This document shows positions 14,738 to 62,905 of a DNA stretch of 64,000 bases, one piece after another (position 1 is the stretch's first letter; every line of letters starts with the position of its first letter). This stretch comes from Janthinobacterium sp. (GTDB lineage: Bacteria > Pseudomonadota > Gammaproteobacteria > Burkholderiales > Burkholderiaceae_D), in contig NZ_RFSK01000015.1 in the NCBI RefSeq assembly GCF_009923995.1, forward strand, positions 1-64,000, written 5' to 3'. A model generated the notes under the pieces. It searched no databases. It was given only the letters and a program-made list of their open reading frames with translations, and was not told the DNA's origin. Both the position numbers and the translations under genes were made by a program.

Positions 14738-14884
14738 AGAAGGTCTAACAACCGTAGCGAGCGGCAGTGAGGCTCGGCGCCCCCGTTGGCCAAAGAAGCG
14801 CAGCTGTGCGAATGCACGGGGACGCCGAGTCAGTGAGCATCGCAGGCCGCAAATCGCGACGCGCAGTAGGTTGTTAGGCGTTCT
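14738..14884. repeat. 147-bp palindromic repeat, copy A
   Basis: The ends are near-perfect inverted repeats of about 16 bp (14738-14753 against 14869-14884), with CTAACAACC / GGTTGTTAG exact. Internally the copy shares with three other sites in the window the words CTGCGCG, GCGATGCTCAC, CTCGGCG..CCCC and CCGCTCGCTACG (read on the minus strand). It fills the whole gap between the convergent aldo/keto reductase and pssA genes and ends inside the pssA stop codon. It could act as a bidirectional terminator or be a mobile palindromic element. Confidence 0.8.
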
Positions 14885-15692: not shown

Positions 15693-16009
15693 AGTAACGG
15701 GAAAAAAACCAGCGCGGCGGCCTGCGCTGCACTATGCTCATTCTACCCTGTGCGGCAGCGGCACCGTCGGCGCACATGCAGGCGACATATCTTTTCATTA
15801 ATGCTCTACGGCATATAAAAATGCCTTAGAATCGATTCCAGGGTGTCACGGCGGCCCCCACAACATTGATACCGCCTGAACAACACCGTCGCGTGCGCAC
15901 GGCACTCGTGGTCGAGAAGGGCAACTGTACCAGGGGTACGGTGCGCCTCGCCGACCGAAAATGACGACGCGCGGCAGGTGCTGGCAGGTGTACTTATACA
16001 GGAGTCAGC
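15693..16009. other. Divergent intergenic region between pssA and the CAP-domain gene
   Basis: This 317-bp stretch has no plausible gene. It should contain the pssA promoter (minus strand) and that of the CAP-domain gene (plus strand). I see a short GGCAT/ATGCC hairpin near 15807-15822, a TAGAAT box at 15827-15832 and an imperfect palindrome around 15918-15936 (CTGTACC/GGTACGG), none strong enough to name. The leader before the TTG start at 16010 is long. Confidence 0.5.
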
Positions 16010-47272: not shown

Positions 47273-47276
47273 AACA

Positions 47277-47342
47277 CCTGACCCAACCTGCTGCGCGTCG
47301 TGATTTGCCGTCTCCGATGCTCACTGCCTCGGCACCCCCCAC
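47277..47342. repeat. Palindromic repeat, truncated copy B
   Basis: The left half only of the repeat family: it begins CCTGACCCAACC like copy C, then CTGCGCGTCG, GATTTGCCG and GATGCTCACTG-CTCGGC as in copies A and D, and stops at the stop codon of the convergent histidine kinase. The complementary right half is missing. It lies between convergent genes. Confidence 0.75.
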
Positions 47343-53822: not shown

Positions 53823-54188
53823 ATGACCAAGAATGAAGCCATGAAACGCATCAATGACCGCCTGGGCAAACCCACCCTGACGGACAAGAACACGCACTTT
53901 GCCAGCGTCGCCAGCTATGGCACGGACGAAGGCTGGTGGCTGAAGATTCCCTTCCTTACCTTCAAGCAGGAATTGCACTTCATCCTCAACAATGAAAAGA
54001 CGAAGAGCTTCCAGCACCTGAAGATCGGCGCCAACCAGATCCTCAGCCCCGGCATGAAATTTCGCAGCACGGGCGGCGCGGCCGACGCCTTCATGTCGGC
54101 CTCGGCACCGAAACGCCTGGTCGACCTGCTCGACGGCGGCAGCAAGTACAACTTCACCAAGCATTTCATCAACGACTACCGCTACTAG
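53823..54188 (+). CDS. Hypothetical protein
   Basis: This 121-residue Lys-rich protein lacks Cys, signal peptide and membrane segments. It contains a WWLKIPF stretch and a basic C-terminus (YNFTKHFINDYRY). I recognise no family. ATG 53823 (MTKNEAMKR) is chosen because the open frame upstream is GC-rich and not protein-like. It is convergent with 54301-54729, with repeat copy C between. Confidence 0.6.
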   Translation: MTKNEAMKRINDRLGKPTLTDKNTHFASVASYGTDEGWWLKIPFLTFKQELHFILNNEKTKSFQHLKIGANQILSPGMKFRSTGGAADAFMSASAPKRLVDLLDGGSKYNFTKHFINDYRY

Positions 54189-54193
54189 TCCCA

Positions 54194-54305
54194 CCTGACC
54201 CAACCTGCTGCGCGTCGGTATAGGCAGCCTGCGATGCTCACCGTACTAGAGTACGGTTGCGCTTCTCGGCTACCTCTCCCTTCCGCTCGCGACGGTTGGG
54301 TCAGG
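54194..54305. repeat. 112-bp palindromic repeat, copy C
   Basis: The ends are perfect 12-bp inverted repeats CCTGACCCAACC (54194-54205) and GGTTGGGTCAGG (54294-54305). It shares CTGCGCGTCG, CCTGCGATGCTCACC, the core hairpin CCGTACTAGAGTACGG with GTTGCGCTTCTC, and CCGCTCGCGACGG with the other copies, but lacks the CTCGGCGCCCCC arms of copies A and D. It lies between two convergent genes and its right end covers the stop codon of 54301-54729. Confidence 0.85.
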
Positions 54306-54729
54306 CGTCGTGAGGCCTTGTCGGATCATTGTGGGGCGGCAGCCAGGCCTTGAGCAAATGCTGGGCGATGTCGAGCGCGTCGTCGCGGCTGGTGCCGAAG
54401 TGCAGGGGGTAGCCCCAGAACTTGCCGAACATGACGGCAAAGGCCTTGCCGGCCAGGCGCTTGGCGGCGCTCGGTTCGACCAGTACCATGCCCTGGATGT
54501 AGGCGCGGATGGCGGCCTTGTTCCGCTTCATCCAGAGCGATGCGCGCTTGCGTTCTTCCTGCGGGTGCTCGTGCCCGTCCTCGTCAAAACCTTCCTCGCT
54601 GAGGATGACAAAGGCCTGCCGGCGCGCCAGCAGCGCATCGAACTGGGCGAACAGCACGTCGGGCGGGACGCCGGATGCGGCTTCGCGGCGCATCCAGACG
54701 AGGGGAAAATGGGTGATATCGAGTTGCAT
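54301..54729 (-). CDS. Hypothetical protein
   Basis: This 142-residue soluble protein has a helical, charged composition: the N-terminus MQLDITHFPLVWM, then an acidic EEGFDEDGHEHPQEER stretch, then a basic helix KRASLWMKRNKAAIRAYIQGM. It resembles small hypothetical proteins seen next to STAS or anti-sigma genes in beta-proteobacteria, but I cannot name a family. It is convergent with 53823-54188. Confidence 0.6.
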   Translation of the reverse strand: MQLDITHFPLVWMRREAASGVPPDVLFAQFDALLARRQAFVILSEEGFDEDGHEHPQEERKRASLWMKRNKAAIRAYIQGMVLVEPSAAKRLAGKAFAVMFGKFWGYPLHFGTSRDDALDIAQHLLKAWLPPHNDPTRPHDA

Positions 54730-61707: not shown

Positions 61708-62700
61708 ATGAAAAAAGTCCTGTTTACCCTGCTGGCCCTCGGCGCAGCCTCCGGCGGCGCCCTGGCGCAATCCAGCGTGACCATCTATGGCGTGGCCGAT
61801 GCCGGCCTGGTGCTCGACAAGGATGCGGCGGGCGACCGCCTCAACCGCGTCGCCTCGGGCGTCGCCTCCGGCTCGCGCATCGGCTTCAAGGGCAAGGAAG
61901 ACCTGGGCGGCGGCCTGTCCGCCAATTTCGTGCTGGAAAGCGGTTTCAATATCGATACCGGCACGTCGGGCCAGGGCGGCCTGCTGTTCGGCCGCCAGGC
62001 CTACGTGGGCCTGTCCGGCAGCGCCGGCGCCGTCACCCTGGGCCGCCAGTACTCGCCCTACTACCTGGCCCTGCGCGACGTGGCCGACCCCTTCGTCATC
62101 GGCCTGGCCGGTACGGCCTCGAACCTGATGGTGACGAATATCCGCGTCGACAACATGGTGCAATACACCACGCCGACGTACAGCCACCTGTCGGCCGACT
62201 TCGCATATGGCTTCGGCGAAGTGGCCGATGACAATGCGAAAAACCGCAGCGTGGGCGGCGCCGTGCACTACATCGACGGCCCCCTGAACGTGACCCTGAC
62301 GCACCACCGCAAGGAAAATGCCCTGGCGACGCAGCAGACGCGCAACACCCTGCTGGCCGCCCGCTACGACTTTGGCGTGCTGCAAGGCAACTTCGGCTAC
62401 GCCGACAACCGCGCCCTGGACAACAGCAAGAGCAATGACGTGCTCGTGGGCTTCAGCGCCCCGTTCGGCGCCACCAAGCTGGTCGCCTCCTACATCCGCC
62501 ACAACGACAAGAGCAGCCTGAACCGTGACGCCCAGCAATGGGCCATCGGCGCGTTCTATTCCCTGTCCAAGCGCAGCGACCTGTACACGGGTTATGGCCA
62601 CATCAGCAACAAGAACGGCGCCACCTTCGTCGTCGGCAATGCGACGGACAATGGCACGGGCAACAGCGGCTTCAACCTGGGCATGCGTCATACTTTCTAA
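61708..62700 (+). CDS. Gram-negative porin
   Basis: This 330-residue outer-membrane protein has a signal peptide (KKVLFTLLALGAASGGALAQ) and the betaproteobacterial porin pattern: SSVTIYGVADAGLVL, RIGFKGKEDLGGGL, VGLSGSAGAVTLGRQYSP and the terminal LGMRHTF with C-terminal Phe. It should form a trimeric 16-strand barrel. ATG 61708 follows a good Shine-Dalgarno-like stretch (AGAGAGA) and gives the signal. Between dctA and dctB, it probably admits dicarboxylates across the outer membrane. Confidence 0.92.
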   Translation: MKKVLFTLLALGAASGGALAQSSVTIYGVADAGLVLDKDAAGDRLNRVASGVASGSRIGFKGKEDLGGGLSANFVLESGFNIDTGTSGQGGLLFGRQAYVGLSGSAGAVTLGRQYSPYYLALRDVADPFVIGLAGTASNLMVTNIRVDNMVQYTTPTYSHLSADFAYGFGEVADDNAKNRSVGGAVHYIDGPLNVTLTHHRKENALATQQTRNTLLAARYDFGVLQGNFGYADNRALDNSKSNDVLVGFSAPFGATKLVASYIRHNDKSSLNRDAQQWAIGAFYSLSKRSDLYTGYGHISNKNGATFVVGNATDNGTGNSGFNLGMRHTF

Positions 62701-62701
62701 G

Positions 62702-62848
62702 GACGTCGGCCAAAACCTACTGCGCGGCGCGCTTTGCGGCCGGCGATGCTCACCGGCTCGGCGCCCCCGTACTAAAGTACGGTTGCGCCTCTCGACCACA
62801 AGGGGGCGCCGAGCCTCACTGCCGCTCGCTACGATTTTGTCGGACGTC
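62702..62848. repeat. 147-bp palindromic repeat, copy D
   Basis: The ends are near-perfect inverted repeats starting GACGTC (62702-62707) and ending GACGTC (62843-62848), continued by GGCCAAAACC / GATTTTGTCG. Inside are 12-bp arms CTCGGCGCCCCC and GGGGGCGCCGAG and the core CCGTACTAAAGTACGG with GTTGCGCCTCTC. Length equals copy A. It directly follows the porin stop codon. Confidence 0.85.
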
Positions 62849-62873: not shown

Positions 62874-62905
62874 AGCCGCCGGATGCATGTCCGGCGGCTT
62901 TTTTT
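62874..62905 (+). terminator. Rho-independent terminator after the porin and repeat D
   Basis: AGCCGCCGGA (62874-62883) / TCCGGCGGCT (62890-62899), a perfect 10-bp stem with a 6-base loop, is followed by a run of T. Confidence 0.92.

Follow-up and report, generated by a model that had tools for sequence, protein, structure and literature searches.

The described system closest to the repeat analysed here is BRE, which is about 90 bp long (75-91 bp), occurs in tandem in variable number and, in the part of the report available to us, has its function left open (Hot et al. 2011, PMC3110155). The same part describes BRE as chromosomal and mostly intergenic, with some copies overlapping ORF ends by a few bases and with polymorphism at its loci, and names Bordetella, Polaromonas, Acidovorax, Delftia, Rhodoferax and others as hosts (PMC3110155). 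Among enterobacterial repeats, the excerpts consulted describe ERIC/IRU/RU-1 as carrying TA at the ends, with target duplication, as held to be mobile and as having a reported orientation-dependent effect on RNA (PMC2229807), and give 127 bp as the size of ERIC (PMC2759123). REP/BIME elements are presented, in the corresponding excerpts, as units of 20-40 bp with an end tag and an association with RAYT, extragenic and mostly downstream of genes, the GTAG termini of REPs often supplying a TAG stop codon (PMC3733652, PMC2817692).

The repeat family analysed here was found in the 64-kb window, which is the whole stretch of Janthinobacterium DNA under analysis (64,000 nt), and it can be set beside BRE in several respects. 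The core of about 88 bp (within a full unit of 116 bp) compares with about 90 bp for BRE, the hosts belong to the same order, the location is likewise chromosomal and mostly intergenic (0 of 116 midpoints in genes, and no plasmid match to a one-copy query), and tandem arrays occur, here in genome G306, with none among the listed Janthinobacterium places. However, the available part of PMC3110155 reports no stop-codon anchoring, no orientation rule relative to genes and no box structure. Likened by description and not by sequence, the family likely belongs to the same superfamily as BRE and, by description again, is probably BRE itself. The repeat type is known, and the seating on stop codons is its unusual part. 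The family in outline has probably been described, and the box structure, the target bias and the stop-codon anchoring were not found in the literature searched: nothing found there describes a repeat with this kind of orientation and anchoring relative to stop codons, and the box sequences as a text query brought up no title on repeats of such kind among the matches listed.

As far as the excerpted sources go, ERIC is comparable by description as a small repeated palindrome of similar size that is held mobile, and REPs, like the repeat here, are extragenic and lie mostly downstream of genes. The present repeat differs from REPs in its length of 116 bp, its internal boxes, its variable ends without a GTAG/CGTC end tag and the lack of any RAYT link in our comparisons. 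Integron attC sites are imperfect palindromes that lie behind stop codons in gene orientation and have conserved asymmetries, their outermost boxes being conserved. The ends of copy A in the window presumably resemble attC core sites; however, the outermost arm here is among the most variable parts of the element, and the copies are dispersed.

Copies in the window

The window holds three full copies (C, D and A) and a fifth copy, all of one family, together with a left-half remnant (B). Copy C is a complete 116-bp element on the plus strand at 54192..54307 (cmsearch 132.6 bits, E 7e-28), and its orthologous site is polymorphic in Janthinobacterium. Copies D (62702..62848, plus strand; cmsearch 62704-62846, E 3e-15) and A (14738..14884, minus strand; cmsearch 14740-14882, E 1e-10) are 147-bp variants, longer because of an extra apical block, which D carries on both arms. 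Since C, D and A are among the 31 copies on which the covariance model was trained, their scores are partly a matter of construction. Copy B (about 47275..47338, plus strand) is identical to the left arm of C in its first 26 nt and is absent from the covariance-model match list. The fifth copy (15873..15990, minus strand; 70.7 bits, E 2e-13), which lies outside the training set and had been overlooked in the first-pass annotation, sits between divergent genes, a long way from the nearest same-strand stop codon, and is one of only 3 divergent placements among 116.

Copies A, B and C sit between convergent genes, and D begins behind a porin gene whose stop codon (62698..62700, plus strand) is 3 nt upstream of the model start of D. 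At copy C, the stop codon of the upstream plus-strand gene (54186..54188) lies 3 nt before the element, and that of the convergent minus-strand gene (54301..54303) falls within the right outer arm; all three stop codons are from our own gene calls. The four repeats of the first-pass annotation were thus recovered at their positions to within a few bases, by sequence and cmsearch (B by sequence), and so was their arrangement, three between convergent genes and the fourth after a stop. The word GCGATGCTCAC, which had been quoted as shared by the copies, is not significant alone (4 matches with at most one mismatch against 2.9 expected).

Family size and distribution

A genome-wide search with the covariance model returned 127 rows at E ≤ 0.1 in the 6.18-Mb Janthinobacterium genome, which after removal of 6 second-strand matches correspond to at least 121 distinct places, far beyond the four copies first noticed in the window and a lower bound because 150 of 8113 first-look candidates were scored. 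Five places without flank were dropped, leaving 116 copies, weak matches included, for the seating counts. Outer arms and T-R-R triplets were scored on the 108-109 copies above 45 bits, mismatches on 106 copies, and target-site duplication on the flanks of 101 copies (second flank test, 59/86). In a specificity control, 61 loci of other genera around a TonB receptor (1.28 Mb) gave 0 matches at E ≤ 0.01; the TonB receptor gene near copies has Janthinobacterium strains as its best named relatives, up to 96% identical. Six 20-kb stretches of the same genome without a listed copy reached a best E of 0.35 and, since the list came from the model itself, are not an independent control. No Rfam 15 family reached its gathering threshold in the window, and at five loci all Rfam matches were far below threshold, the best over the element being MIR8788 (29.4 bits against a threshold of 124, E 0.15).

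Among sampled genomes of the same GTDB family, 205 of 343 match at E ≤ 1e-4, representing 32 of 44 genera. An initial survey at E ≤ 0.01 detected the element in 34 of the 37 Janthinobacterium genomes covered, the source genome among them, at 1 to at least 60 copies each; outside the family but within the order, 4 of 24 genomes gave 1 to 11 weak matches. Copy number within Janthinobacterium ranges from 0 to at least 121, no element having been found in the genome surveys of G027. Genome G306 contains five tandem arrays with a unit spacing of about 112-156 bp, each opening with a full unit; in two of them most units match model positions 11-106 only, and in 5 of 5 a stop triplet, as read from the bare sequence, precedes the first full unit by 2-5 nt. 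These arrays (L408-L412) are candidate variable-number loci. No tandem array occurs among the 121 listed places of the present genome. With one copy as query, 0 of 72,556 plasmid records and 0 of 50,697 phage records matched, searches that diverged copies could escape, and an exact core pattern gave 0 matches in IMG/VR; a plasmid search with the host region as query matched mainly a chemotaxis gene.

Anatomy and covariation of the palindrome

The unit is a 116-bp imperfect palindrome with four nearly invariant boxes, CTRCTGCGCG and TGCGATGCTCR in the left arm and TGCGCTTCTC and CGCTCGCKACG in the right arm, which are opposed as two asymmetric internal loops. The stems that separate the boxes are an outer one of about 14 nt, a middle one and, at the apex, a stem-loop (CCGTAC..GTACGG); the core between the outer arms is about 88 bp long. 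In copy C (all features on the plus strand), the left outer arm (54192..54205) pairs with the right outer arm (54294..54307), as read from the sequence and from helices 1 and 2 of the covariation analysis. Proceeding inwards and out again, the alignments place left box 1 (TGCTGCGCG, nearly invariant) at 54206..54214, left box 2 (TGCGATGCTCA) at 54230..54240, right box 2 (TTGCGCTTCTC, also evident in the sequence) at 54257..54267 and right box 1 (CCGCTCGCGACG) at 54283..54294, with the apical stem-loop, supported by sequence and covariation, at 54241..54256. In some copies a stop codon lies inside the outer arm, so that the edge of the element is not fully defined.

Stem sequences change between copies while complementarity is kept, and in diverged copies and other genera the outer arms are visibly different yet complementary copy by copy. 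An alignment of 34 rows (A2), comprising one copy, the best, per genome for 30 genomes from 17 other genera, three Janthinobacterium copies and the second-strand reading of one, was fitted to the covariance model, which favours paired structure. Pairing holds in 96.2% of its cells, double changes occur in 24 of the 34 pairs, and the 219 double-change cells compare with 60 after shuffling. When the partner is shifted by one column, pairing falls to 31-38%. Among standard pairs, 219 differ on both sides and 15 on one side, 9 of these 15 in a single box-2 pair. The 30 rows from other genera alone are 95.8% paired, with double changes in 24 pairs and 202 double-change cells.

Conservation of the boxes over the 17 other genera, together with the lack of matches in plasmid, phage and viral-contig collections, would fit a fixed site for DNA binding or chromosome organisation, maintained for the sake of the nucleoid or of repair. 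However, copy number within one genus varies between 0 and at least 121, and the compared sites differ between strains, which makes such a fixed site extremely unlikely.

A hairpin in sense RNA should tolerate G.U and not A.C, so that the count of A.C against G.T mismatches serves as a test and offers a general way to separate DNA-level from RNA-level palindromes. In variable pairs, a class that omits pairs barely varying or mostly T.G, A.C outnumbers G.T by 22 to 4 in A2, by 19 to 4 in the 30 other-genera rows (p 0.003) and by 94 to 54 in the present genome, where two columns carry 35 of the 94 and the counts without them are 59 and 43 (p 0.14). Over all 34 pairs, G.T exceeds A.C (30 versus 22 in A2; 150 versus 108 in this genome), largely because of the box-2 pairs, where T.G/G.T is part of the conserved motif. 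The mismatches speak somewhat more for a hairpin in DNA than for one in sense RNA, and the analysis leans towards a palindrome that would be kept at the DNA level by folding of one strand (the bottom strand, if either), by template switching between the arms, or by both. A sense-strand structured RNA was rejected as the main reading, A.C exceeding G.T in variable pairs and no Rfam family matching.

Placement behind stop codons

Genes were called with our own hexamer caller, and no annotation was used. None of the 116 copies has its midpoint inside a called gene; 69 lie between codirectional genes, 43 between convergent and 3 between divergent ones, and 1 was unscored. The 5' end lies -15 to +10 nt from a same-strand stop codon in 89 of the 116, with exactly 3 nt between them in 31, whereas random positions and orientations in the same gaps averaged 22.8 and reached at most 28 of 115 in 40 trials; the 3' end is equally close to an opposite-strand stop in 10 of the 116. 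The element is oriented with the upstream gene. The proposal of the first-pass annotation that the copies form one family biased towards gene 3' ends therefore holds at genome scale, across at least 121 places, and copies scattered inside genes without such a bias were not what the 116 placements revealed. A seat near a same-strand stop codon applies to the 89 and not to every copy, and the bias is weaker in other genomes; nor is the convergent placement seen in the window a rule, as the codirectional copies outnumber the convergent ones.

In 30 genomes of other genera, with one copy each, an ORF of at least 80 codons ends -12 to +10 nt from the 5' side in 14 of 30 and at the 3' side in 1 of 30. 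Forty further copies from the upper part of the lists of four genomes (20/56, 10/25, 5/22 and 5/12) were near a stop in 17 cases at the 5' side versus 8 at the 3' side, and in G194 the counts were 0/5 at the 5' side versus 2/5 at the 3' side. Stop-codon anchoring is thus plain in the present Janthinobacterium genome, and elsewhere it occurs in weaker form.

A T-R-R triplet is found 3 nt before the element in 8 of 26 copies away from gene stops, and TGG occurs there too. Random T-R-R hits per gap predict 20.2 of 108 copies at stops versus 68 observed (z 14.8); targeting of T-R-R alone thus predicts too few placements at stops, and an extra cause is needed, so that either the insertion machinery has a preference for gene ends or most insertions elsewhere are lost to selection. 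Although small palindromes between genes are common, few families reveal their placement rule; here the orientation, the T-R-R preference and the near-contact with stops amount to a sharp, testable one.

A transcriptional role was weighed against the same placements. At least five T within 8 nt occur in the next 12 nt of 15 of 109 copies, and a simple terminator finder called an intrinsic terminator downstream of 21 among 66 element-bearing genes and of 41 among 216 genes lacking the element, the background gene pairs coming from stretches mostly picked around copies and so forming no fair genome sample. At site D, the same terminator-like hairpin with T-tract (62875..62905, plus strand, by sequence alignment) follows in strains with and without the copy. 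Terminator action is, on these sequence features, unlikely to be the reason for the seating, and the element may still affect mRNA ends. The domesticated bidirectional terminators suggested in the first-pass annotation agree poorly with the one-way orientation (89 versus 10 of 116) as well as with these T-tract and terminator counts, and a bidirectional terminator was rejected as the main reading, T-tracts being few and downstream terminators at least as frequent with the element.

More broadly, the hairpin might act in cis at 3' ends, transcribed with the upstream gene as a terminator or mRNA-end stabiliser, so that selection would keep sense-oriented hairpins behind stops. Such a role would account for the orientation and the seating behind stops, and for the rarity of divergent placements (3, compared with 69 codirectional and 43 convergent), and it agrees with a long stable hairpin and with the excess of G.T over A.C across all 34 pairs. 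However, the excess of A.C in variable pairs is the opposite of the wobble tolerance of a sense-strand RNA, U-tracts are few, terminator-like hairpins downstream are at least as frequent as at element-free genes, and at five sites no more than 1 to 15 of the 30 loci compared hold a full element; a cis-acting role is accordingly judged rather unlikely.

Strain polymorphism and insertion sites

Comparison with strains lacking a given copy, a check named in the first-pass annotation, revealed presence/absence polymorphism at 7 of 7 sites, with full, deleted and empty states. At site C, 5 of 17 scorable loci are filled, 2 internally deleted and 10 without the element (3 more were unscorable), and at site D 6 of 19 are filled and 13 are without it. 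Among 30 loci each, the element is full in 3 behind hscA; behind hscB it is present in 2, one full by the box test and one a diverged copy in L262, the 'partial' state of L279 probably being false. Full, partial and element-free loci number 9, 3 and 18 behind ribBA, 15, 3 and 12 upstream of ribBA, and 13, 9 and 8 beside a gcvA-like gene. In the internal deletions inspected, a short hairpin with the outer stem remains. Filled, empty and part-deleted alleles thus exist in sister strains. The polymorphism fits past mobility, although it could stem partly from loss.

Site D occurs in other strains in 116-, 130- and 143-bp versions, the 130-bp version having the apical block on the left arm only and the 143-bp versions on both arms. 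In L156 (15127-15242), an orthologue of D, the left arm is matched by a perfectly complementary stretch of 22 nt immediately right of the apex, and the remainder of the right arm is unchanged, an arm copying that is consistent with a template-switch conversion inside the palindrome. At hscA, the frame of the filled allele shares its end codon with many of the strains that lack the element, though not with every one, and at ribBA the filled allele seems, from the frame reading, to have a different C-terminus (L281 versus L283 and L286). Six strains (L286, L288, L289, L296, L298 and L300) carry a short allele at the ribBA end that resembles an excision footprint.

Neither site comparisons nor flank statistics yielded a clean target-site duplication. 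The element upstream of ribBA is flanked by TTA on each side, those at hscA and near the gcvA-like gene by TGA/TAA, and the one at site D shows an 8-bp direct repeat. In both flank tests the signal was confined to one base; in the test on 101 copies, the best among 225 offset pairs had a base in common in 48 against 28 expected. IS5-like insertion sequences produce a TNA target duplication. The repeat could on that basis be a classical MITE of an IS5-like DDE insertion sequence with terminal inverted repeats NRACRCCTGACMAAACC, a possibility in keeping with the inverted ends of most aligned copies and with the TNA-like repeats upstream of ribBA, imperfect at hscA and near the gcvA-like gene. 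However, the outer arms offer no fixed terminal sequence, as they vary but stay complementary, and it was for this that a fixed-end MITE was rejected as the main reading. The strong orientation bias also speaks against it, since TNA is self-complementary and TNA targeting should give both orientations, and searches with queries other than the element ends found no partner insertion sequence. A DDE-type MITE therefore appears quite improbable.

A proposed model of mobilisation and tests of a transposase link

Non-autonomous mobile palindromes, the other possibility named in the first-pass annotation, are the likely reading in view of the at least 121 places and the presence/absence polymorphism at 7 of 7 sites, and the family is real, large and probably mobile. 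In the explanation that we hold with slightly more belief than doubt, non-autonomous palindromes of about 116-120 bp would be moved in trans by a hairpin-recognising recombinase and kept at stops. The recombinase would recognise the folded DNA hairpin with its two conserved asymmetric internal loops and insert it in a fixed orientation, preferring a T-R-R triplet at the 5' side of the element. Most copies in this genome would have been retained where that T-R-R is, or abuts, a gene stop codon, selection presumably favouring these positions because insertion there leaves the protein intact.

A bolder version draws on the attC principle without an integron. It supposes Burkholderiaceae-wide DNA-hairpin recombination sites with a folded bottom strand, which a dedicated recombinase would place behind stops in gene orientation and whose re-copied arms would build their own matching outer stem at each insertion; we regard this version as clearly unlikely. 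If a dedicated enzyme exists, it might provide a tool for harmless insertion behind genes. What deserves to be followed is the four-box anatomy with its covariation, the pairing signal at the DNA level and the way in which copies sit, oriented, behind stops.

For these probably mobile palindromes, no transposase or autonomous relative could be tied to the element in a Y1/RAYT comparison over 343 genomes and at the loci of the present genome. Y1_Tnp occurs in 321 of the 343 genomes and in 40 of 40 genomes searched within the genus, including G027, where the surveys found no element, and being almost universal its presence is uninformative. An element of the REP/BIME type moved by a RAYT (Y1 tyrosine transposase) would accord with a chromosomal intergenic hairpin containing mismatches and with the GTAG present in both box-1 motifs on the bottom strand of the cross-genus consensus. 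However, the element is present in 5 of the 20 listed genomes without a Y1 match, G195 (56 matches) being one of them, and the unit of 116 bp contrasts with the 20-40 bp given for REP units in the consulted part of PMC3733652. The search for a RAYT proposed in the first-pass annotation led to two RAYT-like loci in the source genome, L239 (G000:C94) and L238 (G000:C79), with no element in the 6 kb fetched and, at one of them, a different palindrome. A REP/RAYT origin is thus very improbable, and a RAYT-driven REP was rejected as the main reading on account of these element-free loci and of G195, which has no Y1 transposase match. The palindrome at L238, of the GGGGTCGGACCC type and different from the element, lies just behind the RAYT-like gene. 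Many genomes of the genus contain frames (about 242-253 aa) close in size to the RAYT-like gene of L239.
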